Below, in pieces: positions 8,661-63,997 of a stretch of DNA of 64,000 nucleotides; within the stretch, counting starts at the first letter, position 1; every line of letters starts with the position of its first letter. Below the pieces are notes generated by a model, which worked only from the letters and a program-made list of their open reading frames with translations, was not told the DNA's origin and searched no databases. The DNA comes from Stenocarpella maydis (lineage: Eukaryota > Ascomycota > Sordariomycetes > Diaporthales > Diaporthaceae), in the NCBI GenBank assembly GCA_002270565.1, contig NQMI01000034.1, positions 300,192 to 364,191 on the forward strand, given 5' to 3'. A program made the translations under genes and the position numbers.

Positions 8661-9251
8661 AGAGAGAGACCTCTAGAGAGAGACCTCTAGAGAGAGACCT
8701 CTAGAGAGAGACCTCTAGAGAGAGACCTCTAGAGAGAGACCTCTAGAGAGAGACCTCTAGAGAGAGACCTCTAGAGAGAGACCTCTAGAGAGAGACCTCT
8801 AGAGAGAGACCTCTAGAGAGAGACCTCTAGAGAGAGACCTCTAGAGAGAGACCTCTAGAGAGAGACCTCTAGAGAGAGACCTCTAGAGAGAGACCTCTAG
8901 AGAGAGACCTCTAGAGAGAGACCTCTAGAGAGAGACCTCTAGAGAGAGACCTCTAGAGAGAGACCTCTAGAGAGAGACCTCTAGAGAGAGACCTCTAGAG
9001 AGAGACCTCTAGAGAGAGACCTCTAGAGAGAGACCTCTAGAGAGAGACCTCTAGAGAGAGACCTCTAGAGAGAGACCTCTAGAGAGAGACCTCTAGAGAG
9101 AGACCTCTAGAGAGAGACCTCTAGAGAGAGACCTCTAGAGAGAGACCTCTAGAGAGAGACCTCTAGAGAGAGACCTCTAGAGAGAGACCTCTAGAGAGAG
9201 ACCTCTAGAGAGAGACCTCTAGAGAGAGACCTCTAGAGAGAGACCTCTAGA
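8661..9251. repeat. Perfect 14-bp minisatellite, about 42 copies
   Basis: The unit ACCTCTAGAGAGAG repeats without a visible mismatch for about 590 bp, giving about 42 copies. Each unit contains the 8-bp palindrome CTCTAGAG. The array ends at a single N (9252) followed by a C-rich run, so its true length is not fixed by this assembly. It lies in the promoter region of the oxysterol-binding protein gene, about 120 bp before its start codon. Confidence 0.95.
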
Positions 9252-14001: not shown

Positions 14002-14745
14002 TCACTGCTCACCAAGGTGTTTCGCGAATTCTGGGGGCTCTGTATTGCTGCTTTTTAACTCGACATAAGAGAATGCCTCCATGCCAGGATTCATAAACAT
14101 CTCCCCACAGTGTGACACATGCCTTTCATTATCATACCTCGCCTCTATCTTAACGCCCGTGGTTTTAGATCTCTGCAATTTCCGCCAGTAGTAGAAGCAG
14201 TGCATGAAATGCCAGCGGGGAGTCGTCCAGAAGAGCTTGCCAGGTGTGTCTGCGAGGGCGCCAACCTCCACCAAACTTAGCTCTATCGTGTGATTGGCAT
14301 CCGCCCAGTACTGCCATCGCCCGTCTGGCCCGTCGCCGTCCTTGTCGAACTGGGCCATGAGGTCTTTATCAATGCAGTGGGGAGGCAGCCAGGCTGCTGC
14401 CATAGTGTCGTACTCGCAGCCCAACGACCTGGCCTCGGCAACCGAGTCGCCACAGTCACAAGGTCCGAGCTCATCGCTGACGAAGGAGTGACGGTTCGTC
14501 ATGACTATGGCGGACGCAGCGAGCGCAATCAGGGACACATCTTTCAGAGTCGAGATCCACTGTGGGATTGTTCTCTTCCTGCGTTGTGCACGTAACGGTG
14601 GTTTCTGGTGTGCTTCCTCAGCGAGAAACGGTTCATCATCTCCATGGGAGTTTTGTAAGCTAGGTCACAAAGAAAACAAAATGTCAGAAAGAAGGCTGGA
14701 CAAAGTTTGAATATGTCATACTTACGTGCTGTAGGTGGGCGACAT
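14002..14745 (-). CDS. Single-pass membrane protein with two HxxHC motifs (distant UstYa-like)
   Basis: Two exons, 14745-14726 and 14659-14002, give about 225 aa. The tiny first exon (MSPTYST) follows from a GTAAGT donor and a CCTAG acceptor joining in phase. An acidic cytosolic head is followed by a basic stretch (RAQRRKR) and a transmembrane helix near residues 48-62. The lumenal part carries GCEYDTMAAAWLPPHC, then HFMHC (157-161) and HVSHC (187-191). Two spaced HxxHC motifs are the proposed catalytic feature of UstYa-type cyclases. The surrounding sequence differs from the six classical members in this window and matches another widespread, uncharacterised fungal family. Function is inferred only from motif and position at the cluster edge. 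Confidence 0.78.
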
Positions 14746-15886: not shown

Positions 15887-16690
15887 ATGGATACCAAGAT
15901 TCACTACATCCTGTCTTCCTGCATGGTCCTTGCGGCCGGTCTGATATTTGTTTTTGGAGGGAAGCAACATCCTACAGCTTTAGAATGTACTATGAACATG
16001 CATTCATGGTGTAAGTCTGTTTGCCCGATAGCATCAGGCCTCCCCCAACTAAACAATTTTGATAGCTCCAGCATGGGGTGCTGTTGAGCAAAGGTGGGAG
16101 ACTTTCCAAAACGACTTCTCTCAAAAGTCCGTGTTTAGAGGCCAGCCCACGGCCACAATAGAAGCGGCATGGGATTCTATCTTGCCGGGTGAGTCTACGC
16201 TATCGAAGAGGTCAAAGAGTCTCATTTTGAGACTGACTCAACAATCTTAGAGAAGCCTGTTTCAATGTCCGCAGATGACGTGGAACTCCCCAAAGGTTTT
16301 CAACCAAGTTCTCTGGTTGCGGACGAGTCGGGCAATTTACTGGGCCATCTTGAAGTTTTCAGGAATCTGGCCTGTCTCAACTTGCTCCGCCAGCATACAT
16401 TCAGAGATGATTACGACTATGCTAGCCTGCCGGCTTTCCAAGGGACGGAGGGTGAGGTCATGAGCCGCATGGATGGGTGCGTTCAGAGACTGCGAAACGT
16501 TCTAATGTGCGAGGGTGATGCCACTCCTTACCTGATCATGCTCACCCCGGAGAAGAGGGAGAAGGAGTCACCAGATTTCAACACGCTGCACTACTGCAAG
16601 AATTTTGATGGAGTTTTGAATTGGGCTAGAGCAAATGAGGCCCAGGACGGCGTGGAGAGCCCACCTCTTTACAGCTCCGCATACGTATGA
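15887..16690 (+). CDS. UstYa/DUF3328-family protein lacking both HxxHC histidine pairs
   Basis: Three exons, 15887-16010, 16066-16188 and 16251-16690, give about 228 aa. Introns of 55 and 62 nt sit at the positions usual for the family. A transmembrane segment spans about residues 6-24. The family core follows: SPAWGAVEQRWETF, a FRGQPT block, LEVF, FRDDYDYASLPAF, and DFNTLHYCKNFD. Where relatives have HQLHC and HVDHC this protein reads RNLAC (120-124) and RMDGC (155-159). The cysteines remain but all four histidines are gone. There is no stop or frameshift, so it seems expressed yet probably not an oxidative cyclase by the known mechanism. It could be a regulatory or scaffold subunit, or an early pseudoenzyme. 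Confidence 0.88.
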
Positions 16691-16993: not shown

Positions 16994-17955
16994 ATGAGAA
17001 TCGATCACGACAAGATAAAGGGCATCACTTTCAGTGCCGCCGCCGCAAGCATGCTTTGCGGTGTCATAATAGGCTCGACACTCACACAATTCATTTTCCC
17101 CCGACCAGATTGGCGCACATGCCGCCAAATTGGTCTGGAGGCCAGCGCTACTGGGACCCGTCATAAAAGCGAGGAGGCATGGAATAGATCCGCCTCACAA
17201 GACAAGCCGCATTGTAAGCCTCAAAGCTCCAAAAAAAAATCCGAACTTTTCTTTGTATTCACCAGGACACGCCCTAGCGTTTGAGCTGCTACACCAAAAC
17301 GGCTACCCGACCGACCTGCAGACACTACGTACCTTTGGCACCCACGACGCCTTCACTCCCTTCAAGGGCCCGCCCACCAAAGAGGTCGACGAGGCGTGGT
17401 CCAAATACTGGAAGGTGTGGATGTTCAGCGTCAATGAGGACGCTTTCAAGGCTTCCGTCCCGCAGCACTCGGAATCAGCCGTTCGTGTCCATGACAAGAG
17501 GCACGATGATGGCAGCGCAAGCCCGCGTTATCTTGCAACGTTTGAGGCTACACATCAGCTCCATTGCCTATACAATCTTTTTCGAGCATCGTACCTCGAC
17601 TACTATTCGGATGAAAAGAAGCAATACGATGCAGACCCAATGCAATGGCATGCGCGAGTGGACCATTGTGTAGACATACTGCGCCAGAAACTTGCTTGGT
17701 AAGGTTTCCGCCACCCTGAGCAGTTCTCAACTCCTCCTAAATTTCGCTGTGATCTGACTGACGGGCGAAAGTGACCGTGACACCTCGTTGATCACCTACA
17801 ATTGGGTAAAAGGCAAGAAAGGACCGGTGACAAACTTCAACGTGCAGCGGGTCTGTCCGCGTTGGGAGCATTTGGATGAGTGGGCCGCGAAATACGAGGT
17901 GACAAGCATTCCTACCAAGCCGGAACATGCTGTGCAACTCGATAGTATTCCTTAA
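16994..17955 (+). CDS. UstYa/DUF3328-family protein
   Basis: Three exons, 16994-17213, 17278-17698 and 17772-17955, give about 274 aa. An N-terminal transmembrane segment spans about residues 11-34. The first acceptor is read as the TAG at 17275-17277, because the earlier CAG would create an in-frame stop. The last exon, after a GTAAGG donor, encodes the usual tail (C-DRDTSLITYNWVKG). Site 1 is HQLHC (166-170) and site 2 is RVDHC (200-204), where the first histidine is Arg. The mid-domain is longer than in its neighbours. It starts 300 bp after the previous family member and ends 190 bp before the next, all on one strand. Family members are proposed oxidative cyclases of RiPP cores. Confidence 0.85.
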
Positions 17956-18146: not shown

Positions 18147-19223
18147 ATGGACGACCTGGAGACGAAAGAGCTCCTCACTCCAACTTCACAAGCGTCACAT
18201 CATTTTGAAATCTCCAGCCAGCGCTATGTTCGGAGGGAGCGGCACATGGCAAGCCTGATAGTTTCGTGCATTCTCACCTCCATGATAACCGCCCTATCAT
18301 GTTGGTTTCTATACCAACCATCCACACCCGACGCAGTGGATGACCCTTCGATCCAATTTTATTGTGAGTTCTTTCGAGTGGCCTTGTAAAAGTTCATGCG
18401 GCCGGGGTTAACAGGCATCTGTGCGGCAGCTCCCGCGAACGAATACGTGGAGTATATCCCACACGTCTTTCAAAGGAGTCGCGGGGATGACAAGACTCCC
18501 TTCCAGGGTTGGCCCACAGACGATATCGATAGGACTTGGCAAGAGTCTTATGTTCGTAAGTTAAGACTCTTTCTGTCCCTTGCGGGATCCAGCTAATACT
18601 GATTTTACCAGCCGGGATAGTTTCTGTGATAGATGGTAAGACGGCGTCCTTTCTGCCAGAAAAAACCGAGCGCCTGGCGGTCAAAGGCAGAGAGGACCAA
18701 TTTGTGATGACTCTCGACGTATTTCACCAGATGCACTGCCTAGACGTAGTGAGGATGGCTTTGTACCGTGACCGATACGACAAACATTTCTACTTTCCAA
18801 ATGGAACGGTAGATTATTGTAAATGGTTGCACGTTGGTAAGTGCAGCGCTTCCTGGCCCCGACTAGATTCTCGACCTCACAGTTCCCTTTCATTCTATGG
18901 GTTCAATGTTACAGGAGCTAATAAAGATCGCCATATCAGACCACTGCCTTGATCAGGTACGTCAAGCGTTAATGTGCAGCGCAGACGTCAGCGTTGTGTA
19001 CTACGCTTGGAGCGACATCGTGCAGGGAGTCCGGCCCAGAGTCGACAATCAGCACACGTGCAGGAACTATAGTAAACTCCTCGATTGGGCTTCGGACAGA
19101 ACCATTCCCGAAACCGACTGGCACCCGAGTCGTCGTGTTATCGTTGGTGAAGATGGAGACTTTGAGATCCAGCAAGGCAGAAATCATGCCGTGGACGGTC
19201 AAGGAGAATGTAATGGAATTTAG
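18147..19223 (+). CDS. UstYa/DUF3328-family putative oxidative cyclase
   Basis: Four exons, 18147-18363, 18415-18555, 18612-18836 and 18940-19223, give about 288 aa. All introns are phase 1. The last acceptor (TATCAG at 18934-18939) is chosen because it rebuilds HVDHC exactly across the junction. An acidic cytosolic head (MDDLETKELL) precedes a transmembrane helix at about 34-56. Both motifs are intact: HQMHC (158-162) and HVDHC (193-197). The C-terminal part has the family block ALMCSADVS and TCRNYSKLLDWA, then an unusual Arg/Glu/Gln-rich tail. It lies next to, and convergent with, the precursor gene, about 620 bp away. The most likely role is side-chain crosslinking of the core peptide. Confidence 0.88.
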
Positions 19224-19843: not shown

Positions 19844-20413
19844 TTACTCATCGTACTCGCCGTAGTTCTTGGTCCAGGGGATAGCGCATCGCTTCACAGT
19901 GGTGCCGTTCTCATCGACAGAGCCGACGCAGGCGCGCTCATCAATATCCCGCTTCTCGTCGTACTCGCCATAGTTCTTGGTCCAGGGGATGGCGCATCGC
20001 TTCACAGGTGCGCCGTTCTCGTCGACAGAGCCGACGCAAGCACGCTCGTTGAGGACCTCGCGCTTCTCGTCGTACTCGCCGTAGTTCTTGGTCCAGGGGA
20101 TGGCGCATCGTCGCAGCAAAGTGCCATCTTCCTCAACGGAGTCGAAGCAGGCGCGCTTCTCATCATATTCGCCATAGTTTTTGGTCCAGGGGATGGCGCA
20201 TCGCTTCACCTTGTTTCCATCCTCGTCAACAGAGCCGACGCAAGCACGCTCGTCGAGGACCTCGCGCTTCTCGTACTCGCCGTAGTTCTTGGTCCAGGGG
20301 ATAGGGCAACGCCTGACGATGGTGCCATCTTCCTTGGTGGAGCTGGTACAACCGGGAGCTGCCAGCACGGCGGCTGAAGCAGAAAGGACGGTTGCAAGAA
20401 TGCTCAGCTTCAT
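19844..20413 (-). CDS. Repeat-containing secreted RiPP precursor (dikaritin-like)
   Basis: An unspliced frame of 189 aa. A signal peptide is clear (MKLSILATVLSASAAVLA, cleavage near residue 18-20). Five repeats of C-(A/P)-IPWTKNYGEY follow, at residues 36-47, 72-83, 103-114, 140-151 and 176-187. Each is preceded by KR or RR, and the first four are followed by (D)EKR, so a Kex2-like protease would release peptides of the form CAIPWTKNYGEYDE. Spacers of the form ACVGSVDENG are also conserved and carry a second cysteine. Signal peptide, identical cores and dibasic cuts, plus flanking UstYa genes, match ustiloxin/phomopsin-type precursors. The core holds one Trp and two Tyr suited to oxidative crosslinking. 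The last copy ends GEYDE-stop without KR. I do not recognise the core from any known product. An alternative is a repeat hormone or pheromone precursor, but no WC...CW pheromone core is present. Confidence 0.87.
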   Translation of the reverse strand: MKLSILATVLSASAAVLAAPGCTSSTKEDGTIVRRCPIPWTKNYGEYEKREVLDERACVGSVDEDGNKVKRCAIPWTKNYGEYDEKRACFDSVEEDGTLLRRCAIPWTKNYGEYDEKREVLNERACVGSVDENGAPVKRCAIPWTKNYGEYDEKRDIDERACVGSVDENGTTVKRCAIPWTKNYGEYDE

Positions 20414-21752: not shown

Positions 21753-22809
21753 ATGGCGCCGAATCATCACTACAGCCAACTGGTGCTCAACACCGTTGAC
21801 GACGAAGTTGAGGACAGCTTTGAACCCACAGAGAAACTGGACGGCCCCATCCAGGTACACACTTGTCACAGATGTAAAAGAAACATTTGGCCTTGGGCAG
21901 CAGCGTTCACTTTCCTCTGTCTTGTATCACTACTTGTCCTCACTGCCATCACTCGATCGCCGAGTGAGTCTGAATGCTTGGAAAAGCTCTCAGTTTGGTG
22001 TAAGTACCTTGTACTGTGGTCAATACGTCCTGCATGCTGAGTGTACCATAGCTCCCGCTTTTGAAGCGGTGGAGTACGTCGATGTCCAATTCCAAAACAG
22101 CTTCTTTGAAGAATCAAGATACAGAGGCCGACCGACGCCAGAGTTAGAGAGGGCGTGGTTTGATCTTTGGAACTGTGAGTATGATGCATCTGCACCGTCC
22201 GAGGCAAGGCTTTGGCTGCGAACATGACTTCTGACTCCGGCAGTCGGCCCTGTGAACATCCCGGTGGACAAGCTCGGCGCCTTGAACAAGTCGGAAGACG
22301 ACGACTGGCAGCGAACGAAGCCTGAGGCGGGAGGAGGTGTGATTGGGTCACTGGAAGGTAATTAGAAGAGTCTCTGCAGAAAGGAAAAGTGATCGTCTGT
22401 AGTCAAGACTGTTGACATGTGGAAGTTTTCCACCAAATACATTGTCTAGATCTCATTCGTCAGTACACGTACAGGGACGAATACGACTACAGCAAGCTGC
22501 CGAGCTTTGACGGTTCACCGCGGCTCGTGCGAGAGGTAAGTTAAGCAACCAGATCAGGGTGGGTGTGGGTTAGGCCCTGGAACTAGCTGACAGTCGCAGC
22601 ATGTCGACCACTGCATTAATAGTCTGCGGATTTATTTGCAATGTGCGTCAGATGTGACTCCATACCTCATAAAGCGGGACACACAAAAGCCTTTGGGCAT
22701 CGACCCGGACTTCAACACGCAGCATAAATGTCGCAATTTCGATGCAATACACGCGTGGGCAAAAGGGCACGAGCTCGACACGGATGATTACCAGAACCAT
22801 TTACGGTGA
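21753..22809 (+). CDS. UstYa/DUF3328-family putative oxidative cyclase
   Basis: Five exons, 21753-21999, 22052-22174, 22244-22357, 22426-22535 and 22600-22809, give about 267 aa. This is the most canonical member in the window. It has an acidic head, a transmembrane helix at about 46-68, then SPAFEAVEYVDVQFQNSF, RYRGRPTPELERAW, and DDDWQRTKPEAGGGVIGSLE. HQIHC (164-168) is followed by TYRDEYDYSKLPSF, HVDHC (199-203), and HKCRNFDAIHAWA. Every splice junction keeps phase and rebuilds a conserved block; the acceptor at 22423-22425 is AAG. Both HxxHC motifs are intact. It is divergent from the precursor gene across a 1.3-kb shared region, and is a strong candidate for the core-crosslinking enzyme. 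Confidence 0.92.
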
Positions 22810-23218: not shown

Positions 23219-24820
23219 CTATCCACGTTCAGAATTTTGTGATAAAAATCGCTGCGCAGCCATCGCAATGCTAGTTGATGGAAGATCAATCAGGCGCCAA
23301 AATACATCTGCAACCCATATAACCACAGTGACCAACACAACATAGGCTGCGGCAAACCCTACAACGTATCTCCAAACCTCTTGGGTTCCAGAAATTCTCC
23401 AGAAGAAGGGGAACACTGCGTAGCCAACAGTGTGAACCAGCGGGCCATGAACAATATAGAGGCTAAAGCTTATTTTCCCCAGATACTGCAGAAATGCAGA
23501 GTTGAGCACCTTGTTCGCAAGGCTTTTTTCCACTTCCACATGAGTGACTAGCACGATGAGAAGCATGCCTCCTATATTTGGAAGAAACCGAAACGGCGCC
23601 GGGTCAGAAGACGGAATGAGCCGAGAAAGAAGCTGATATCCAGGAGTGTCTGCCATGCAAAAGTCCGGAGAGGACAGCAAGTGCAGGCTCCCAAGGAAGG
23701 CGACCAATCTTGTGGCTGCGAATACAACACGATGACTTGGGCGTCGGTGTATGGCCTGCAGGGCTCCAGAAGATTGAGCCCTGCAGGCTATTGAAGTATC
23801 CGCTGCCAGGAGGCCTGCAAAGAAGAGAGCGACATCCCACCGGTCAAGCAAGTAGACATAAATAATAATGGTTGCCATGAGGAGCTTCCTGACGACTGGC
23901 CTCAAGGAGAGATATGCCGGCAAGACGAGGAAGACCGAGAGCGAACATCTGAATTCGGCTGGAATCGTCCAGAGGTGGACATCGTAGGGATTGTTGAAAT
24001 CTCCCCACCAAAAGACTCGGCACATTTTCCACGTCTGGCGGAGCCAATCCAGTACCTGAGCACCAAGTGATCCCATCCTTTGATGGTGCGTTTCCTGAAT
24101 GACCGGAATCCAATGCGAATGAAGTGCGACTTGGCGTCCTGGCTCATACGCACCCAGGTGGATTGCGACCATGGTCGCCATGGTCGCAACTATTGGGGGG
24201 AGATAAATACGGATAGGTCGACGAAGCAGTCTTGCGGCGGTGGTCGCTGCCGCTCTGGAGGACGTCGATTCCGAGGATGAATTTGCCTCAAGAATCGGTT
24301 TGTAAGACAGCACGTATCCAGACACGACGAAGAATACAGAAATTGGCCACGTGCCACTGTAAATAAGTCGTAGAATTGGTAACTGGTGAAACCAATTTGT
24401 TGCTGTTCCTAGATCTTCAGGCCGTCCACACGACTGCATTGAATTGTAGGATAACCCGTAGCCGTAGAAGACGAAAGATTGAAACGCGTAGAGAATGTGA
24501 TAATTCATGACCGAATACGCCGCAAGGCCTCGAAGTCCGTCCAGCGATGATGTTGAAGAAGGCCTCCGTGCTGACGCAGATTGATGTCCGTTTCCATCCG
24601 GCAACAAGAAACTTGGTAGTAAGATGGAAAGCGACTTTCGAAATGTGTTTAACATATCGAGAGGAGAGCGCTTCCCATCGCCCGGAGGGTTTCCCTTTTC
24701 CTCGTCTTCTTCCGACCGCGACTCCGATGTCATCAGAAGCTCTAACTCATCTCTGACACGGTTCTTCCAGAACAGACGGAGAGACCCATGCGGAGCTGCC
24801 CACTTAAGAGCGTCGAACAT
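23219..24820 (-). CDS. Membrane acyltransferase, acyltransferase-3 family (NodX/OafB type)
   Basis: The frame gives 533 aa from the first ATG (24820). It stays open to 24997 with no other ATG and is bounded upstream by TAA, so either the start is 24820 or a short upstream exon is missing. The family opening is clear: SLDGLRGLAAYSVMNYHIL, with the conserved Asp-Gly-Leu-Arg-Gly and His. About ten hydrophobic helices follow, including SVFFVVSGYVLSYK and a C-terminal ISFSLYIVHGPLVHT. Such enzymes move acyl groups onto hydroxyls of sugars, terpenoids or peptides at membranes. Its place between UstYa-family genes suggests a tailoring role, for example O-acylation of the peptide, but this is inference. 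Confidence 0.85.
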   Translation of the reverse strand: MFDALKWAAPHGSLRLFWKNRVRDELELLMTSESRSEEDEEKGNPPGDGKRSPLDMLNTFRKSLSILLPSFLLPDGNGHQSASARRPSSTSSLDGLRGLAAYSVMNYHILYAFQSFVFYGYGLSYNSMQSCGRPEDLGTATNWFHQLPILRLIYSGTWPISVFFVVSGYVLSYKPILEANSSSESTSSRAAATTAARLLRRPIRIYLPPIVATMATMVAIHLGAYEPGRQVALHSHWIPVIQETHHQRMGSLGAQVLDWLRQTWKMCRVFWWGDFNNPYDVHLWTIPAEFRCSLSVFLVLPAYLSLRPVVRKLLMATIIIYVYLLDRWDVALFFAGLLAADTSIACRAQSSGALQAIHRRPSHRVVFAATRLVAFLGSLHLLSSPDFCMADTPGYQLLSRLIPSSDPAPFRFLPNIGGMLLIVLVTHVEVEKSLANKVLNSAFLQYLGKISFSLYIVHGPLVHTVGYAVFPFFWRISGTQEVWRYVVGFAAAYVVLVTVVIWVADVFWRLIDLPSTSIAMAAQRFLSQNSERG

Positions 24821-25700
24821 GGCTGCAAACGCTTGGATTGTCCGTTTTGATTTCAATTGACTCCTTGCCGTAGTAGTATTTCTGAAGACTGTCCTTGCGT
24901 ACAAGTCAGTCCTGAGTAAGGCAATGGCAAAATCTGGGAGTGGCACAATGCACGAGGGCGGATCGATGGCGCTGCCGGCCTCTGAGCTCAAACCCAACGT
25001 TTAAGGGATGGGAGGAGGTGAGAGAAGGAGCCACTGCTGTCAACTGGTCTCTGGTCTTGGTTGTCCGCCTGACTGTAAACAGGTAGCTGCGCGACGAGGA
25101 CCAAAACTCCAGTGATTGTCACGGTTCGGTGGAATGTCTGTCCACGTGCCTCGTTTTGGCGGGTCTTTTTTTTTGGGGGGGGGGAGGGTTCTTTCAAGAA
25201 CCAGGAATAGCCATGGAGATCGCTAGTCGTAAATCCTTCAGATACTACCGTGTAAACTGGGGTGCAAAGGAGCTGTATATCGCAGGATGGACACCAGTGA
25301 TGGTGTCCTTCCTTGAACCCGGCGGTGAGGGCCCTGACCAACTGCTTGACCCTTGCATCTAGTGGAGCTGACTTGACCCCACTAGCAGGCGCAACATTGG
25401 AGTGTAAGCGCCAAATTCTTACATATTCTTAACAGCTATTATTACTAGTAGTGAGTTATCGAGTTACCAGGTACATTGGTTGAGGCAGGGCACATGGTAA
25501 GTGACGGGTCAAGGGAAGCCTTGGTACTCGTACCAGAGCCCCCAGAGACCTAGGCAGACCGGAACACGTCAGCTCAAAAACATAGGAGCATTGCTGCGAG
25601 GAATCCTCGAATCTTAACCTCTGCTTAGAAGGCTAATTCACCAGGGACCGACCATAGCCACCCTTCCCCTTCGAGAGTATTCCCCTCTCTACTCTTCAAC
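24821..25700. other. Intergenic between acyltransferase and UstYa-family gene
   Basis: It contains the ATG-less extension of the acyltransferase frame (to 24997) and a T-run followed by a G-run at about 25168-25188. Divergent promoters are expected here. No further gene is supported. Confidence 0.45.
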
Positions 25701-26731
25701 ATGTTCAAGATTTTCCAACGCAATAAGGCCCCATCGTACACGTTGGTCAAGAGTCCCGAAGGGGACGAAGAAGACCCTGTTTCTTCTCAAGTCCCGCAAA
25801 AAGACCGTCCATGGGCCGCCGTGGGGATCCTGTTAGCAAGCGGCATCTTACTCTTCCTCTCAGTCTCGCGATACGCATATCTTAGGACAAGTTACCTCAC
25901 AGACACAATATGCACGCATGCGACATCGGCTCCAAGTGAGTCAATCAACCGGGCGCCTGTCGCCTATGGGAATCCTTGAAGCGTTAGCCGGTTGCCAGAC
26001 TGACAGTAAATGCTGTGGCATCAGGTCCTGCTTTGGAAGCTGTGAGCTTGTCCTGGACCACGTTCCGTGACGAGTTCGAGCCGGACATCTACAGTGGCTA
26101 TCCAAACGCAGCCTCAGAGAAAGCATGGGCTGATTTATGGGACTGTAAGTTTGCCTTCAGATAGCTCTTAGAGCCTGTGGACCTGACACGCAATACAGTC
26201 GGCGCCTTTGCTGTGCCTGTGAGCATGCTGCCTGGGCTCAACAAGTCATCATCCAACGGCGCGTTCCGGACAGTCAACGATGGCTCAAGTGTCGGCGGTC
26301 TTCTTGAAGGAGCACACCAGATCCATTGCTTGGTGGGTACACCATTTCTCTTTCTCCCACACTCCTGGCTCACTTATCGCCGATTGATGCTATTCAGTGG
26401 CTATAGGCAGACAGATGGAAATACTGACGGTTTTTGGCCCTCAAAATAGAATCTTGTTCGCCAATTTATCTATCGGGAGCACTGGGACTACAGCCAAATC
26501 CCGTCTTTCAGCGGTGGCGAAAAGACGCGACGGCATCATGTAGACCACTGCATCGAGACACTGAGAACTGTGTTTATGTGCCAAAGCGATGTTTCCCCCG
26601 TCTTTTTCGAGAAGGTCAAGATAGGCTCCAAGGACAGAATGGTACCAAGTAGCTTGCCTAAGAAGTGCCGCGTGTACTCGGGCCTGGTCAGTTGGGTCAG
26701 AGATCACTCTGTGTTTGATACAGTTGAATAA
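25701..26731 (+). CDS. UstYa/DUF3328-family putative oxidative cyclase
   Basis: Four exons, 25701-25935, 26025-26144, 26199-26332 and 26450-26731, give about 256 aa. A cytosolic head (MFKIFQRNKAPSYTLV) and acidic stretch precede a transmembrane helix at about 37-57. SPALEAVSLSWTTFRDEF and AWADLWD are the family block after the helix. The motifs are HQIHC (158-162), directly before the third intron, and HVDHC (193-197). The segment between them, VRQFIYREHWDYSQIPSF, is also standard. The tail after MCQSDVSP is divergent and lacks the usual C-x-N-F/Y block, reading KKCRVYSGLVSWV instead. It is upstream of, and codirectional with, the amidase gene, 212 bp away. Confidence 0.88.
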
Positions 26732-26943: not shown

Positions 26944-28866
26944 ATGGCAACTGCAGGTCTCAACGTCCTTTCCGCGACCGCTACAGATCTGCAGGACCTG
27001 TTGCAGGCAAAACAAGTCAGCAGCGTGCAGCTGGTGAAAGCATACCTGAGCCAGATTGCTCAGCACAATGCAGCGCTAAATGCATTCATTTGTTTGGCAC
27101 CTGAACAAAAGGTGATCGCGACAGCTGCCTTGCTGGACAAAGAGAGGCTCGAAGGCCGCGTGCGCGGGAAGCTGCATGGAATACCTATTGTGTTAAAGGT
27201 GCGAACCAGTTGCGAGCCCCAAATCCCGTTCCGAATGCCCACGATCTCATTCTGATTATCGGAAAGGATTGCTTTGTCAGCGCTGCTGATCTTGGAATGT
27301 CAACCACGGCTGGATCATGGGCTCTCGTCGGTGCCAAGAGCAACAGGAATTCCGCCATGGTGCAGAAGCTGGTCGATGCTGGCCTTATAATACTTGGGAA
27401 GACAAACATGACGGTAAGAAAATCGACAGCCTCTTGAGACATTTACGGCCATGCTAAGCCAAGCAGGAGTTTGCAGGCATGAAAATGACCATGATGATGC
27501 CAGGATGGTCGGCCTACGGTGGCCAGACTATCTCTCCTTATGCCGGCAAAATCGAGGACGGTGACACGATACTGGGCCACTCGGTAAGTCCTCACTGGGC
27601 ATGCACACTATTACTTTTCCTCACGCATTGCTAGGCACCTGGCGGGTCGTCAACTGGGTCTGCTGTAGCAGTCGCCGCAGGGTTCTCACCACTTGCGATA
27701 GGAGCAGAGACCATTGGCTCCATCATCACGCCTGCATCGAGGGCTGCCCTATATGCCCTGAAGCCAACAGTCGGAGTGCAAGATGTGACCGGGTCGTACT
27801 CATTGACAGACTTCTTTGACAGCCCCGGACCGATGGCAAAATGTGCCTCAGACGTTCAAGCCCTGCTGGAAGTTATGCTGCGCAGAGACTTCCTTCCCAC
27901 TGGGCTTTGGGACTGGAAAGATGTCTCTATAGGCTTTGCCGACCCACAAGTGTGGAAAATGGCCGGGGCAATGTGTCGGCAGCATGAAGGAACAGCGGAA
28001 GAAATGGTGAGTTTGGAATGGAATACGACAGGGCGGACCTTTTATTGACAAATATTTTGCAGGAATCGAAGTACATCTCATGCGTAGATAACTTAAAATC
28101 TACCGCCTGCCAGCTGCAGTACCCGATCTCCATCCCGGACATCTCCGTTCTCACGGTCGATGAAGAGGATGCCATCATGCCTATCGCCTGTAAGTGATTG
28201 CCCTGATGCTGACAGCTTTTGGACTGAAGCTGATAATGAGAAGTCTGGGAGTTCAAGAATATTTGCATTCCTAGATTCCTTGCAGCTTTTGACGAATGTC
28301 CAGTCCGGAACTTGGAAGACATCGTCCTATTCAACCGGCAAAACAAGGACAAAGCAATGCCTGAGCGTCGGTTTTAGCCTCCAATCCAGTCCTGTAATTC
28401 TTTGAATGTTAACATGACCCCAGCCTATACGGAACAGAACGACATCATCAAGGCGTTCGAGAATGTAGATACGGAAGAGAATGTTGCACGACTCAGAAGT
28501 GGTTTGCGCAAGAAAGCAAGATCTGTCCTTGAACCTGTCTTCCATGACAATGGGATCAACATCATCGCTGCCCCTGCTGATTCTTCGCTATGTATCCACG
28601 CAGCAGCCGCCGGTAAGCACAGAGGCACAAGCTAGACACGATGACCAATTCACCAGGCCAGAAAGACGCCTACGTACTGACGACACACTTTGTTAGGCTA
28701 TCCAATTGCAACAGTGCCCTTGGGACAGCTGACATACAACCAGCGCCCTTTCGGGCTGTGCATAATGGCTCGGGATGGCTACGAGGAGGCCCTGCTCCAG
28801 TTCATGCATCTCTACGAGTCGGCGGCCCCCCCTCGCCCGATTCCACAGGGGCTGGATTGCGCTTGA
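26944..28866 (+). CDS. Amidase-signature family hydrolase
   Basis: Eight exons: 26944-27198, 27267-27413, 27467-27583, 27635-28006, 28063-28189, 28244-28366, 28424-28612 and 28697-28866. They give about 499 aa, the normal size for fungal members. The Ser-cisSer-Lys triad is visible: Lys85 in GIPIVLKD, the serine pair in PGGSSTGSA (178-179), and the nucleophile Ser202 in GAETIGSI, followed by PASRAALYALKPTVG. The donor of intron 6 (GTCGGT) is unusual, but phase and alignment support it. The family hydrolyses amide bonds of small molecules or peptides. Being embedded among UstYa genes, it could trim or deamidate the peptide product. It has no obvious signal peptide, so it may act in the cytosol; it could also be an unrelated catabolic gene. 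Confidence 0.87.
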
Positions 28867-29645: not shown

Positions 29646-30809
29646 ATGTTTGGTGCGTTTAAGAAGCATCACCAAAGTGATAACGCAGCAGGCTCCGACG
29701 AGGAGGAGACGTTCCTCCCCAAGTCCAACTCGAAGATCAAATCCATCGGGCAAGGTTCATCTTGGACGGACCATGTGTGGAAAGCAAGCACTCTTCTTTT
29801 CGCAATCCTCTTTGTCATGTCTCTCTTCCTTCCTCGGCCTCTTTTTCAACCAAGGGGTACATACGAGACCGGTTTCGATACCGACTTGGGTACGTACTTC
29901 CACCAACTCGGTGATAACACAGAGATTTTCCTTACCAACCTGCTACAGAGCCAGCGATTGCATCAATCAAGATGCAACGGAAAAAGTTCCCAGGCGGAAT
30001 TATTGTAAATGGTTCGAATGCCTTCGAACTCGTGCTGGACCGAGAAGTGCCACTGTACACGGGCCATCCCACACAAAAGCTTGACGACAACTGGGACAGA
30101 CTGGTTGGTAAGAACACCTGGCTTTCAGACCCTTTACGAAATTTTAGATCACTGATCCTATTCTCCAGGCGGATACCTGGCTCTCACACAGGCTGAAGCC
30201 GCCAAAATCCAGGGCGATGTTTCCGTGGATGGTGGCAGCTACTTCGTAGTACCACGTAAGCAGCTTTCGGATACATTTCAGCCCTCTTCGGAAAAGCAAT
30301 TTCCGATCTGTAGCCTGTAACTTAAATAAACTGTCCGGGTGCAGGTTTTGGAACAAATCATGCCCATTCTGTGGCCTGGTCCTCCCTATAACCGAACGGA
30401 ACTTCTTCCTCGGTGCTCTGGTAGCTGACTCCTTTTGCTGCAGATGTGCGACATAGCCTCCACTGTGTGAACTACCTCCGAAAGGTGGCATATGAGAAGT
30501 GGTATCCCACCATTCGCACCGAGAACAAACCCACTGTGCCGACATTTTGGCAGCACGTCGGTGGGTCTGGTCCTGGAACTCTTTTATGAAAATCTGCTAA
30601 CCTCGAAAGCAGACCATTGCATCGAGACTTTGAGGCAAACTGTGCAGTGCCAGTCGGATCTTACACCAGTTCCTCATGTCTGGTCAGAAGGGAAGCAGAT
30701 GTATTTGGCAGACACGAGCCTGGAACATACTTGCAGAAATTACGAGGCCCTTATGGAGTGGCAGGACAAACGCGAAGACGCTTTCAAGGGCAAGATAGGC
30801 CACAAGTAG
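29646..30809 (+). CDS. UstYa/DUF3328-family putative oxidative cyclase
   Basis: Five exons, 29646-29889, 29949-30107, 30169-30255, 30444-30560 and 30613-30809, give about 267 aa. The 188-nt third intron is long for this region. The start at 29646 has a CACAATG context; an in-frame ATG 18 nt upstream is less likely. An acidic head (SDEEETFLP) precedes a transmembrane helix near 48-68. The motifs are HSLHC (167-171) and HVDHC (201-205, rebuilt across the last intron). The tail TCRNYEALMEWQDKRED is typical. The middle differs from the other members (GGIIVNGSNAFELVLD), suggesting a different substrate preference. It is the right-hand member of the cluster. Confidence 0.87.
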
Positions 30810-53508: not shown

Positions 53509-54101
53509 TGAATTTGTGCTATAAAATAGCATTCAGTTCAGCGTGTGTGTGTTTCGGCAGGGTCGCAGTATGGTGCTCTGAAGCGAATTGGGACGATTGA
53601 CAATGGTCTGGACAACTTTGTATTGAATTAAGTTGGGCTTCTGTAAGCCCTCCTTATATACCCTCCGACGTCGTCTCACCCCTGGGCACGCTGCGGTAGG
53701 CTCTGGTGCAAATTTGCAAATGCCGGAAAATTCGCCCTTCCAACACACCATCTTTGGTTCCAAGCAACTAGCCAACCATAGCCCTAGCAATGCCCAAATT
53801 AAGTACATACAAACTTCAGAAATCAGGCTATCCAATGCACTAAGTCATATACTTTTTGGGTAAGAAATAAGGGTAATGCAGAGGTCTGAATTAAGGTGCA
53901 AATGCAGGCCAAAATAATCGACTCACGGCCACCAAACTCATCTTGCGTCACGCACGCACTGGGCGTACTTAGCGAAAATCGCCTGACTCGCAAGTCTAGG
54001 GTAACTCCTTGCTAGGAAGTCTAGGGTAACTCCTTACAACGAAGTCTAGGGTAACTCCTTGCACGGAGTACCAACGCCCTGCTGAGCGGTTCCGTTTAAC
54101 A
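53509..54101 (-). repeat. Solo copia LTR (copy A)
   Basis: A 593-bp LTR with TG...CA ends, in minus orientation (starts TGTTAAACGGAACC). It is nearly identical to the LTR at 63409-63997. It contains three tandem 25-bp units built on AAGTCTAGGGTAACTCCTT. No internal domain adjoins it, and the 5-bp flanks do not match, so no target-site duplication is visible. Confidence 0.85.
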
Positions 54102-56816: not shown

Positions 56817-57921
56817 CTATAGGGTTCGATTAGGGCGGTCCCTAATGATTTGAATACCTAGAAAGAAGCTTGCAGGGCCCCTGTCTTCTATAGCATATGC
56901 CTTGTGGATTTGGCGTTTTAGGGCCTGAATTTTGGAGATTCCAGGCCCTATTATTAGGCAGTCGTTAATGTAGGACACTATAAATAGGCCTGATGCCCTG
57001 CTGTAGAAGACGGCGGAGTCTGAGAGTAGCGGTTTGAAGCCTAGACCTTTCAGAAGGTCAATAACTATCTGTTGCCACTCCCTAGGGGCCTGCTTTAGGC
57101 CATATAGAGCTTTATTTAGCCGAATTATCTGCTGATCAGAGGGGTTATAGCCAGCCCTAGTTAATAGCCGATGAATTTGGCTACTAGTTTGGGCGGCAAA
57201 TTCTTTGAACCCCTCTGGAAGCTCCATAAAGACCTGTTCTTTCAGCGTACTATTTAGGAAGGCACCTATAAAATCGATCTGCTCGATTTCCCAGTCAAGA
57301 ATAGCAGCTAGTGCTAGTAGTACCCTCCAGGTAGGAGGGCTAGAGGTTGAGGCGAAGGTCTCGGTAAAATCTACCCCTTTCCTCTGTTGAAATCCTCTGA
57401 CTACTAATCGGGCTTTAAATTTAAAGACCCTATTATTCTCGTCCTTTTTCTCTCGTAGGACTAGTCGACTGGTTATAGGCTTTCGACCTTCTGGAAGCTG
57501 ATTTGCTGGCCAAAATTCGAGGGTATTTTGCAAAATTAATTGCTCAAATTCGCTATAGATCGCCTGTAGCCATTTAGCCCTATTAGGGCTTTTTAGCACC
57601 TGTTTCCAGGTCTGGGGGGCTGCAGCGTTTGTAGTACTAAACGCTATTTGGCGTGCTCTTTTGAAGATAGAGTAGACGATCTGTTTGGCGTATGATAGGT
57701 CCATTTCTTCAGGTAGAGTTGGCCCTATACCCTCTGGGGACGACTTTGTAGGGCCTAAATTAGGCCCTATATCCTCTAATTCCCCGGAACCCACAGTGGG
57801 GTCCCCTTCTGCAGAAAGTGCAGGTAAGCCTGAGAGAGGCTCTTCTGGGGGGTCTATTTGAGACCCAGCAGGTATTGTAGGGCCTGAGAGAGGCCCTCCT
57901 AGGGGGTCTATTTGAGACCCA
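56817..57921 (-). pseudogene. Copia pol fragment, left duplicate (reverse transcriptase, YIND)
   Basis: An open frame across linker and reverse transcriptase (KWLQAIYSEFEQL, ARLVVRGFQQRKGVDFTETF, LYGLKQAPREW). The catalytic YVDD is YIND here, from two G-to-A changes on the coding strand, so this copy should be inactive. 56905-57921 is almost identical to 57923-58939. Confidence 0.88.
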
Positions 57922-57922
57922 N
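57922..57922. other. Single-N assembly join between duplicated pol segments
   Basis: One N separates 56905-57921 from 57923-58939, which are 1,017-bp near-identical copies in direct orientation. Confidence 0.9.
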
Positions 57923-60900
57923 TGGATTTGGCGTTTTAGGGCCTGAATTTTGGAGATTCCAGGCCCTATTATTAGGCAGTCGTCGACGTAGGACACTATA
58001 AATAGGCCTGACGCCCTGCTGTAGAAGACGGCGGAGTCTGAGAGTAGCGGTTTGAAGCCTAGACCTTTCAGAAGGTCAATAACTATCTGTTGCCACTCCC
58101 TAGGGGCCTGCTTTAGGCCATATAGAGCTTTATTTAGCCGAATTATCTGCTGATCAGAGGGGTTATAGCCAGCCCTAGTTAATAGCCGATGAATTTGGCT
58201 ACTAGTTTGGGCGGCAAATTCTTTGAACCCCTCTGGAAGCTCCATAAAGACCTGTTCTTTCAGCGTACTATTTAGGAAGGCACCTATAAAATCGATCTGC
58301 TCGATTTCCCAGTCAAGAATAGCAGCTAGTGCTAGTAGTACCCTCCAGGTAGGAGGGCTAGAGGTTGAGGCGAAGGTCTCGGTAAAATCTACCCCTTTCC
58401 TCTGTTGAAATCCTCTGACTACTAATCGGGCTTTAAATTTAAAGACCCTATTATTCTCGTCCTTTTTCTCTCGTAGGACTAGTCGACTGGTTATAGGCTT
58501 TCGACCTTCTGGAAGCTGATTTGCTGGCCAAAATTCGAGGGTATTTTGCAAAATTAATTGCTCAAATTCGCTATAGATCGCCTGTAGCCATTTAGCCCTA
58601 TTAGGGCTTTTTAGCACCTGTTTCCAGGTCTGGGGGGCTGCAGCGTTTGTAGTACTAAACGCTATTTGGCGTGCTCTTTTGAAAATAGAGTAGACGATCT
58701 GTTTGGCGTATGATAGGTCCATTTCTTCAGGTAGAGTTGGCCCTATACCCTCTGGGGACGACTTTGTAGGGCCTAAATTAGGCCCTATATCCTCTAATTC
58801 CCCGGAACCCACAGTGGGGTCCCCTTCTGCAGAAAGTGCAGGTAAGCCTGAGAGAGGCTCTTCTGGGGGGTCTATTTGAGACCCAGCAGGTATTGTAGGG
58901 CCTGAGAGAGGCCCTCCTAGGGGGTCTATTTGAGACCCAGCAGGTACTGTAGGGCCTGAGAGAGGCCCTCCTAGGGGGTCTATTTGAGACCCAATAGGTA
59001 CAGCGGTTGTAGGGTCTACATCCCTATGTAGAGGGTCTAGGGGACCCTCTAATACCCCTTCTGGCCCAAAACCGCTACCAGTATCTATACTGCTTAATTC
59101 CTCATAGATCTTGAGAATAGAGGTCTTTAGAACAGTATGCCGTTTAGGGATATATACTTGATATGTATTATTCCCTAATACCGCTAGCAAATAGCCCGTC
59201 TCCGTCCTCGGGGCTAGCTTGTAGCCCTTCTGACGCTTTTCTTCAGGCAGGAAGACCTCACAGCGAGCCCCTATAACCCTGTACCTCTTTAGCAGTGGTT
59301 TATGGGTTTTAGAGGGCTCTAGCCCATCGTACAGTTCCTGATAGGCTGTAAGGTCTCTATTTGTTAGGGCAGTTGAGTTAACTAACTCAAGTACGGCAGG
59401 TATAATAAAACACCATAGATATAGCGGTAGGCCTGCAGCAAGCATAGTAGCCCTAAGACGGTCTAGAATCACTCGAATAGAGCGTTCTATTAGACCGTTT
59501 TGCTCGTGAATATAGGGACTACTTGTTGAAAAGGCTATGCCCTTATGCTGTAGCCAGGCCTGTAGCTGGGCACTTATCTCCTTCCCGCCATCAAAATGGA
59601 AGCCCCTAGGGTACCGCCCAAATAGGGCCTTCAAGGACCTAAAGAAGCCCTTGATAGTATCCATCATTAGGTCCCCATCTCGATTTTTTAGCAGGAAAAG
59701 CCACCTAAACCTAGATTTTCTATCCACTATTAGTAGCCCAATAGGGCACTTATTATAGGGCATAGGCTTAATAGAAAAGGTATCCCCTTCTAAAGAGTCT
59801 AATACACCCTCTGGATCATCAATAGGCTTGTGATTTAGCCTACGAACAGCCTTAGCCCTATCACAGGCTAGGCATAGAAAATCCCCTTCTGAGATCGAAT
59901 CAAAATTAGGTACCCCTTGGGCTATTTTAGCCGTCTTCTTTAGCAGACGAAGACTAATATGCCCCAATCTCTTGTGCCAGAGATAGGCTAGTTTGAGTAG
60001 CTTAGGGGACCCTTCAGAAGGTCTAGTGGCCTGTATAGGCCGTTTAGTGGCTTTTTTAGAAGGCGAGAGGCCCTCTAAAAGAAGATCTTCTAGGTCCTCT
60101 GTGGCCCTATCCCCCCTATTTCCTACAGGCGGTTCTACCCGCGGGGAAGGACCTGTAGAAGGGGGCGTGCGAGGGACCCGTACCGGAAGACCCTGTAACT
60201 CAGAAATAGGCGAAGCTGGCCTAGGTTCTGAGGCAATAGAGCCTGTAGAGGACCCAGAAGGGCCTAATTCTTCCCTTGTAAGAATAGGCTCTTGAGGGGT
60301 AGGGATCTTCTCATAATCCCTAGCTGCTTCCCTATTAAAAGGGGGCAGCACTATCTCCAAGGCGTTCGTACTACTACTGGGGACGTAGTATATACTATTA
60401 GCCTGAGTAGTATAGGTCTCTGGGGCCTGTATCCCCTTCTGAGGGATAAAAAATCCCGTTTTAGAAGGGTCTAGGTGCACGATCGGTTGCTCATCAGCCC
60501 TATATAGGGTATTCCTTGAGAGGTAACCCCCAGCACTATAGTGGCGAAGGCCACTAAAAATACTGATATCCATAGAGGGCACATACAGTGCCTCCTTTAG
60601 GACTAGACGCTTGGTCTTGGCTGGGCTTTCAGGGCTAATTACCTGAAATGTAGCAGTGCCTCTACCTGAGGGGTATACCCTACCCCCACCTGTTTGCAGG
60701 TACCCAAAATCGCCGGTTGTCACTAAATTAGTGAATAAAGAACGGCTATTTACTATTTGTACTGTAGAACTAGTATCGTATAGCAGGGCAGTAGGCCTGT
60801 TAGGCCTAGAAGGCTTAGGGCCCTTCTTGGGGGGCCCTTTTGATTGTGAACCCCTATAGCAGAGCTTATAGGGGCTTTCTGAGGCTATAAACGAGCTGTC

Positions 60901-61026
60901 TGAATCCCTAGCCTCATCACCTAAAGAATAGCTCTTGCTAGGAGCCGATTCTTCATCATTATAGGCTGAATAGCCTAACGCACAGGCATAGTCCCCTGAA
61001 TTTTCAGGGGGCTTCCCACTGGGCGG
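57923..61026 (-). pseudogene. Copia pol, right copy (protease-integrase-reverse transcriptase)
   Basis: An open frame of about 1,030 codons from just after a TAA (61029-61027), cut at N 57922. It shows a protease-like YDTSSTVQIVNSRSLF, and the integrase zinc region HKRLGHISLRLL...CLACDRAKA. The integrase core has acidic residues in LEGDTFSI, HFDGGKEI and NGLIERSIR. A low-complexity linker with GSQIDPLGGPLSGP repeats follows, then the reverse transcriptase with intact YVDDCLI. The long intact frame implies fairly recent activity or selection, unlike the neighbouring gag and RNase H parts. It is listed as a pseudogene because it is truncated at the assembly join. Confidence 0.87.
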
Positions 61027-63408: not shown

Positions 63409-63997
63409 TGAATTTATGCTATAAAATAGCATTCAGTTCAGCGTGTATTTCGGCAGGGTCGCAGTATGGTGCTCTAAGGCGAATTCGGATGATTAACAAT
63501 GGTCTGGACAACTTTATATTGAATTAAGTTAGGCTTCTATAAGCCCTCCTTATATACCCTCCAACATTATCTTACCCCTGGGCACGCTGCGGTCGGCTCT
63601 GGTGCAAATTTGCAAATGCCGGAAAATTCGCCCTTCCAACACACCATCTTTGGTTCCAAGCAGCCAGCCAACCATAGCCCTAGTAATGCCCAAATTAAGT
63701 ACATACAACCTTCTAAAATCAAGCTATCCAATACACTAAGTTATATACTTTTCGGGTAAGAAATAAGGGTAATACAGAGGTCTGAATTAAGGTGCAAATG
63801 CAGGCCAAAATAATCGACTCACGGCCACCAAACTCATCTTGCGTCACGCACGCACTGGGCGTACTTAGCGAAAATCGCCTGACTCGCAAGTCTAGGGTAA
63901 CTCCTTGCTAGGAAGTCTAGGGTAACTCCTTACAACGAAGTCTAGGGTAACTCCTTGCACGGAGTACCAACGCCCTGCTGAGCGGTTCCGTTTAACA
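63409..63997 (-). repeat. 5' LTR of the copia element (copy C)
   Basis: 589 bp with TG...CA ends and three internal 25-bp units. It is nearly identical to the solo LTR at 53509-54101. Confidence 0.9.

Follow-up and report, generated by a model that had tools for sequence, protein, structure and literature searches.

A gene found by genome search to be single-copy in the 53.5-Mb, 312-contig genome of Stenocarpella maydis encodes a precursor with five copies of a twelve-residue block, and the locus that holds it is, judging from its sequence, likely to be a fungal UstYa-type RiPP gene cluster. The window analysed here is the 64,000-nucleotide stretch from position 300192 to 364191 of the contig, and its relevant features are collected in Table 1. 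The block had been marked in the first-pass annotation as an unrecognised RiPP core, a proposal that is supported by a signal-like N-terminus, Kex2-type cleavage sites, six UstYa genes around the precursor, selection on the core and homologues that keep it. The block is very probably an undescribed RiPP core, and we read the system as a new UstYa-type (dikaritin-like) RiPP family.

Table 1. Features of the precursor gene and its surroundings. Positions are those of the window.
Feature	Position	Strand	Description
Gene A	14002–14745	-	HFMHC and HVSHC; 2 exons, 225 aa; no Pfam match of its own
Gene B	15887–16690	+	UstYa (E 1.6e-33); motifs RNLAC and RMDGC; 37% identical to gene F
Gene C	16994–17955	+	UstYa (E 2.4e-36); HQLHC and RVDHC; last exon joined by hand
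Gene D	18147–19223	+	UstYa (E 5.7e-46); HQMHC and HVDHC, second motif spanning a predicted splice site; adjoins precursor
Precursor gene	19844–20413	-	Single open frame, 189 aa; ATG at 20413, stop 19844–19846; signal-like N-terminus and five spacer-core units
Core 5	19853–19888	-	CAIPWTKNYGEY; C-terminal
Core 4	19961–19996	-	CAIPWTKNYGEY
Core 3	20072–20107	-	CAIPWTKNYGEY
Core 2	20165–20200	-	CAIPWTKNYGEY
Core 1	20273–20308	-	CPIPWTKNYGEY; sole A-to-P copy
Probable signal peptide	20360–20413	-	MKLSILATVLSASAAVLA; by eye
Gene F	21753–22809	+	UstYa (E 4.3e-57); HQIHC and HVDHC
Acyltransferase 3 family open frame	23219–25000	-	PF01757, E 1.1e-23
Gene G	25701–26731	+	UstYa (E 2.1e-39); HQIHC and HVDHC
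Amidase	26944–28866	+	PF01425, E 1.3e-21 for scanned piece 27635–28048; approximate ends
Gene H	29646–30809	+	UstYa (E 2e-34); HSLHC and HVDHC; splice site at second motif uncertain

The precursor is a chain of units with the layout spacer-KR/RR-C(A/P)IPWTKNYGEY-(D)E. As the first-pass annotation had described, four copies of the block are CAIPWTKNYGEY and one, with an A-to-P change, is CPIPWTKNYGEY. KR or RR stands directly before all five cores and KR follows cores 1 to 4, while core 5 forms the end of the protein. The N-terminus is probably a signal peptide, and its MK start is also present in 17 of the 22 homologues compared. The spacers had been described as varying, which is correct for their sequence; they are not free, however, as each has one Cys and an acidic E/D-D/N-G pattern. 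Tandem Repeats Finder covers the open frame with two arrays (scores 407 and 237).

The five units also carry a record of selection. The five 14-codon core units have a pS of 0.38 and a pN of 0.035 (ratio 0.09; 28 synonymous and 12 replacement differences summed over pairs), against a pS of 0.57 and a pN of 0.25 for the 16-codon spacers (ratio 0.44), the values being sums over ten non-independent pairs with small counts. Purifying selection on the core is therefore supported, in line with the first-pass annotation, which had suggested selection on the released peptide. Since silent sites have drifted (pS 0.38) while the core residues stayed, the copies do not reflect fresh DNA duplication.

Two Pfam matches of the precursor were rejected, namely Omega-toxin (26.8 bits, cut-off 22) and LodA_C (25.9 bits, cut-off 25), whose best stretches, of 15 and 36 residues respectively, both fall within the repeats. 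Because none of the ten homologues scanned, out of 25, reaches any cut-off, we attribute both to repeat inflation. An NCBIfam match at 17.4 bits, where the cut-off is 193, was due to chance, and no relative of the precursor was found among PDB sequences. Other repeats of the window include 42 perfect copies of a 14-base unit, AGAGAGAGACCTCT, at 8661–9251, with an unread codon at the end, an array that may be an assembly feature. Retroelement frames, Copia-like by eye, lie at 56817–61026; two of them share near-identical polymerase stretches, and some bases are unread. They are flanked by one 25-base unit that is present in 2.9 copies each at 53992–54063 and 63888–63959, about 9.9 kb apart.

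Homologue searches, bounded by length, words and annotation, returned three matches with the full precursor protein and 23 with an alignment profile, one being common to both, which gives 25 proteins and, with that of the window, a family of 26 with 42 core copies from two fungal classes. Eleven of the 25 homologues are named to species, coming from Purpureocillium lavendulum, Gnomoniopsis, Penicillium rolfsii, Xylaria arbuscula, Trichoderma harzianum, Fusarium nematophilum (two), Podospora and three species of Aspergillus (affinis, melleus and steynii). Fourteen members have one core, ten have two, one (P0035) has three and the window's protein has five, these counts being lower bounds where gene models are partial. 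Pattern searches of bacterial/archaeal and viral contig collections gave 53 and 42 matches, respectively, none of which was confirmed as a relative.

The core is present in all 26 proteins. In the 25 relatives the core is kept and the spacer sequence varies, the opposite of what the first-pass annotation had named as a refutation, namely homologues that conserve the spacers and not the core. Among the 42 copies, W, T and N are present in every one, Y9 and Y12 in 41 each, G in 40, and E and K in 39 each; the flanking positions are less constant, with Cys in 36, P in 35 and I in 34. The Aspergillus core has a single substitution in WTKNYGEY, from K to Q, and positions outside the core are variable except for the spacer Cys and D-G. 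It can be seen that the twelve-residue block, which had been called invariant, is so within the window's gene, whereas across the family the near-invariant part is the octapeptide WTKNYGEY. Because the search words include the core, this conservation is partly built in and overstates natural fixity; the pN/pS comparison above is independent of that bias. The emphasis that had been placed on the Cys start and the internal I-P is weakened by the same alignment. The first position is C in 36 copies, N in three, T in two and V in one, and never Tyr, and S replaces P in seven of the 42. Since they are missing in 6/42 and 7/42 copies, Cys and P are dispensable, and it is W, Y and Y that stand out as the constant crosslink candidates.

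The family also bears on whether the precursor is cut at all. A dibasic site directly precedes 28 of the 42 cores, and the core is followed by such a site no more than 12 residues on in 22 copies, by the protein C-terminus in 16 and by neither in four. If the product were instead a repetitive secreted protein that acts uncut, with the core conserved for its fold, the conserved Cys pairs and signal-like N-termini would be accommodated, but the dibasic sites on either side of the cores, together with one-core members as short as 58–64 amino acids, make this very improbable.

All six UstYa (PF11807) genes, B, C, D, F, G and H, lie at 15.9–30.8 kb, and so fit into the 15-kb stretch that holds the precursor, with Pfam E-values from 1.6e-33 to 4.3e-57. 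Gene models were built by script and by hand, ten selected window proteins were scanned against Pfam, and most of the region from 36 to 64 kb was judged by eye; no relative of gene F was found among PDB sequences. A search of the whole genome gave 62 UstYa exon matches at 43 merged loci, and the most in any 20 kb are on the precursor's own contig, with five merged loci (six by gene model, as genes C and D fell together in the merged count), followed by contigs with four, whose groups were counted from exon matches. By the same merged count, the 53.5-Mb genome has no other UstYa group as large as that around the precursor. The acyltransferase is putatively assigned to the cluster from its position only.

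CctR, a DUF3328 protein, is a binuclear copper oxidase that loses its activity when HxxHC residues are changed to alanine (PMC12435403). In gene B, which is intact, all four motif His are replaced and both motif Cys are kept. Given the effect of alanine changes at motif residues of CctR, gene B is probably a pseudoenzyme, inactive by itself; that it serves as a partner subunit is perhaps the case, but a guess. Gene C has lost one motif His.

Gene A, which probably belongs to the cluster, has two HxxHC motifs that are invariant in all 24 aligned relatives. At E up to 0.1, gene A itself gives no match to the Pfam UstYa model, and three of the 24 relatives match it weakly (best 2.3e-4). A profile of gene A compared with one of 15 UstYa sequences (the six window genes and nine of 14 genomic stretches, the five without both motifs in one frame having been dropped) aligned over the motif region with a probability of 78.7% and a score of 43.5, whereas control scores did not exceed 19.4 when the columns were shuffled (40 shuffles) and came to 12.9 with the profile reversed; against the six window UstYa genes alone the probability was 48.6%. 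In the predicted model of a gene A relative, P0004 (pLDDT 84), there is one long helix at the N-terminus and the two motifs sit on helices next to each other, a topology that CctR is also described as having (PMC12435403). Of the 16 matches (E up to 10) from a Foldseek search of this model against the PDB, none had an E-value of 0.001 or below, and the suggested fold assignment is drawn from the predicted topology and the motifs. We take gene A to be a remote UstYa relative and not a formal member of that family.

The closest match to gene A overall is 92% identical; the best named one is from Diaporthe eres (86%) and the next from Gnomoniopsis (72%), which, like Diaporthe, belongs to the Diaporthales. 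Relatives of gene A occur together with the precursor in five of the ten named species that have a precursor match. A single gene model joins the two in Purpureocillium lavendulum, where they are accordingly neighbours, while their locus tags in Gnomoniopsis, N0V82_001977 and N0V82_001979, are two apart and in Podospora PSN243 they lie on contigs of equal size. Trichoderma harzianum and Xylaria arbuscula have both genes, on contigs of different size that give no evidence of nearness. Protein searches bounded by length, words and annotation found no gene A match in Penicillium rolfsii, Fusarium nematophilum, Aspergillus affinis, A. melleus or A. steynii and, within the same bounds, no precursor match in ten of 15 named gene A species, Diaporthe eres among them. 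The sequences thus indicate an association between gene A and the precursor that is real but, because of these two sets of species, not strict.

The same genome has ten further gene A matches, of which six, including four from a single contig, are no more than 5 kb away from a UstYa match; ground of this kind makes up 0.6% of the genome. Gene-A-family matches near UstYa were seen at C274:75978-82220, C23:682275-682739 and C100:83710-84063, and the repeat-precursor filter let through no frame in the stretches around them. At C225:5461-5949 the genome has another repeat precursor of the secreted type. Its (V/I)EPFAGI units, about eight in number, are bounded by KR/RR sites, and a gene-A-family match (C225:3799-3984) is found about 1.5 kb away, on a contig that has no UstYa match. 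The divergent HxxHC family of gene A offers a second handle for finding such clusters.

These neighbours weigh on a further reading, in which Kex2 processing of the precursor yields a signalling peptide that resembles a pheromone or hormone and stays unmodified, and the UstYa enzymes act elsewhere. Near-invariance across two fungal classes is what a receptor ligand would display, and 78% of Kex2-processed repeat proteins are without DUF3328 neighbours, the remaining 22% (1758/7878) having them (PMC7329392). Annotated mating factors, in the same survey, almost all lack such neighbours, with three exceptions (PMC7329392). The ascomycete alpha-pheromone has as a rule no DUF3328 neighbours, whereas the present precursor has six UstYa genes around it; no other secreted Kex2 precursor on which they might act is among the best six repeat frames listed for the window, and gene A relatives accompany the precursor in other genera. 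We therefore regard a signalling peptide as unlikely, albeit less so than an uncut protein.

For a UstYa-type RiPP, published work on such systems (PMC6514808, PMC9233826, PMC12435403, PMC7329392) suggests cutting by Kex2 and oxidation by UstYa enzymes. The precursor would enter the secretory pathway, where cleavage at KR/RR by a Kex2-type protease would release five nearly identical peptides, each about 14 residues long (CAIPWTKNYGEYDE), along with acidic spacer peptides. The calculated masses of the linear peptides without modification are 1687.719 Da for CAIPWTKNYGEYDE, 1443.649 Da for CAIPWTKNYGEY and 1059.466 Da for WTKNYGEY, and each crosslink would lower them by 2.016 Da. Membrane-bound copper oxidases (UstYa/DUF3328; the products of genes C, D, F, G and H, and probably of A) would oxidise the WTKNYGEY part, with gene B perhaps as a partner. 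The most likely outcome would be that the side chains of Trp5, Tyr9 and Tyr12, proposed as crosslink sites because they are invariant in the family, are joined together or added to neighbouring carbons; trimming or decoration of the product may be the work of the amidase and acyltransferase. We infer these steps, and a bioactive secreted product at their end, from the sequences.

The spacer Cys residues go together with those of the cores. Cys were counted in the spacer preceding each core, the N-terminal spacer being cut at residue 17 (P0003 and P0041 were left uncut). A spacer Cys accompanies 35 of the 36 Cys-bearing cores (exactly one in 33 cases, three in two); the lone exception, P0041, is a truncated Fusarium nematophilum model that starts inside the spacer, and the other model from that species, P0003, has the spacer Cys. 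By contrast, all six Cys-less cores lack it, apparently as two lineages, one made up of P0035 and P0036 and the other of the second core copy in P0034. Because the pair is gained and lost jointly, as a disulfide would produce, a disulfide probably links the Cys of the spacer with that of the core, on counts that ignore shared descent and include only about two independent joint losses.

Such a bond could make the product a two-chain peptide, in which the spacer-core disulfide forms, Kex2 cuts inside the loop and an acidic A chain (for example ACFDSVEEDGTLL) stays attached to CAIPWTKNYGEYDE, where it would serve as a tethered leader or be retained in the final product. For ACFDSVEEDGTLL and CAIPWTKNYGEYDE the pair, if otherwise unmodified, has a calculated mass of 3083.305 Da. 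Besides the tracking of spacer Cys with core Cys (35/36 with, 6/6 without), a dibasic site lies between the paired Cys in 32/35 and the loop is 13 residues long in 23/35 although its sequence is variable. Three members (P0042, P0043 and P0049) have no dibasic site in the loop, so that the role of the bond could be just to fold the precursor; members without the Cys imply that not every product requires it, and the sequences are related, with about two joint losses between them. We consider a two-chain peptide, which is compatible with UstYa oxidation, a serious possibility that falls somewhat short of an even chance. Rather more doubtful is the combined proposal of a new RiPP class, whose disulfide-closed hairpin units would keep the spacer attached as a leader after Kex2 nicks the loop. 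In this proposal the Trp and two Tyr of a fixed pharmacophore, WTKNYGEY, would be crosslinked by copper UstYa enzymes, including one that belongs to a second HxxHC family not named by Pfam. To our knowledge a disulfide-tethered leader has no precedent among UstYa RiPPs, and if the one suggested here by the paired Cys is real it would be new for them.

Dikaritins in the broad sense are defined by a DUF3328/UstYa enzyme in the cluster (PMC12048977), and here there are six PF11807 genes, together with a signal peptide (by eye) and KR-flanked repeated cores. Like the ustiloxins and phomopsins, the present system combines a signal-like leader, several KR-flanked cores and UstYa/DUF3328 enzymes in the cluster (PMC6514808). 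In those peptides, however, an N-terminal Tyr is joined to Ile (YAIG, YVIP), whereas the present core starts with Cys or another residue and never Tyr, and the EDYXI motif (PMC6339444) is absent from the present precursor family. Their clusters contain a tyrosinase (UstQ/PhomQ) and an S41 peptidase, besides a methyltransferase and flavin monooxygenases, while the 27 tyrosinase (PF00264) and three S41 peptidase (PF03572) matches of this genome all lie away from the precursor's contig. They have two and five UstYa genes, compared with six here (PMC7329392), and the present core further differs in being nearly fixed across two classes.

Asperipin-2a (FYYTGY) is similar in its aromatic-rich core, its UstYa-family cyclase and the lack of a tyrosinase among its four listed genes (PMC6514808). 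It differs in having one UstYa gene and an unrelated core with no Cys and no Trp. We know of no sequence relation between the present core and those of the epichloecyclins and victorin. Trp-Tyr chemistry is known from asperigimycin. Epichloecyclins and victorin resemble the present system in having Kex2-type repeat precursors with side-chain crosslinks (PMC9233826), and the word disulfide is absent from that review of them. Neither WTKNYGEY and four other core strings nor four homologue locus tags were found in the literature searched, outside which lie subscription papers and supplements, survey tables included, and the available text of PMC7099791 contains nothing on the WTKNYGEY core.

The repeat sequences of fungal Kex2 precursors have been characterised as highly diverse (PMC7329392), whereas the present core is nearly fixed from Gnomoniopsis and Trichoderma to Penicillium, which suggests a constant, searchable target. 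Its recurrence in distantly related moulds suggests a family of modified fungal peptides that has gone unstudied. Both large KEP surveys require at least three repeats, a number reached by the five-copy window gene and the three-copy P0035, while 24 of the 26 family members as modelled, with one or two cores as lower bounds, fall below it. The single-core members in particular are relevant to the apparent lack of a precursor in UstYa clusters that have no repeats, a possibility raised in PMC12048977.
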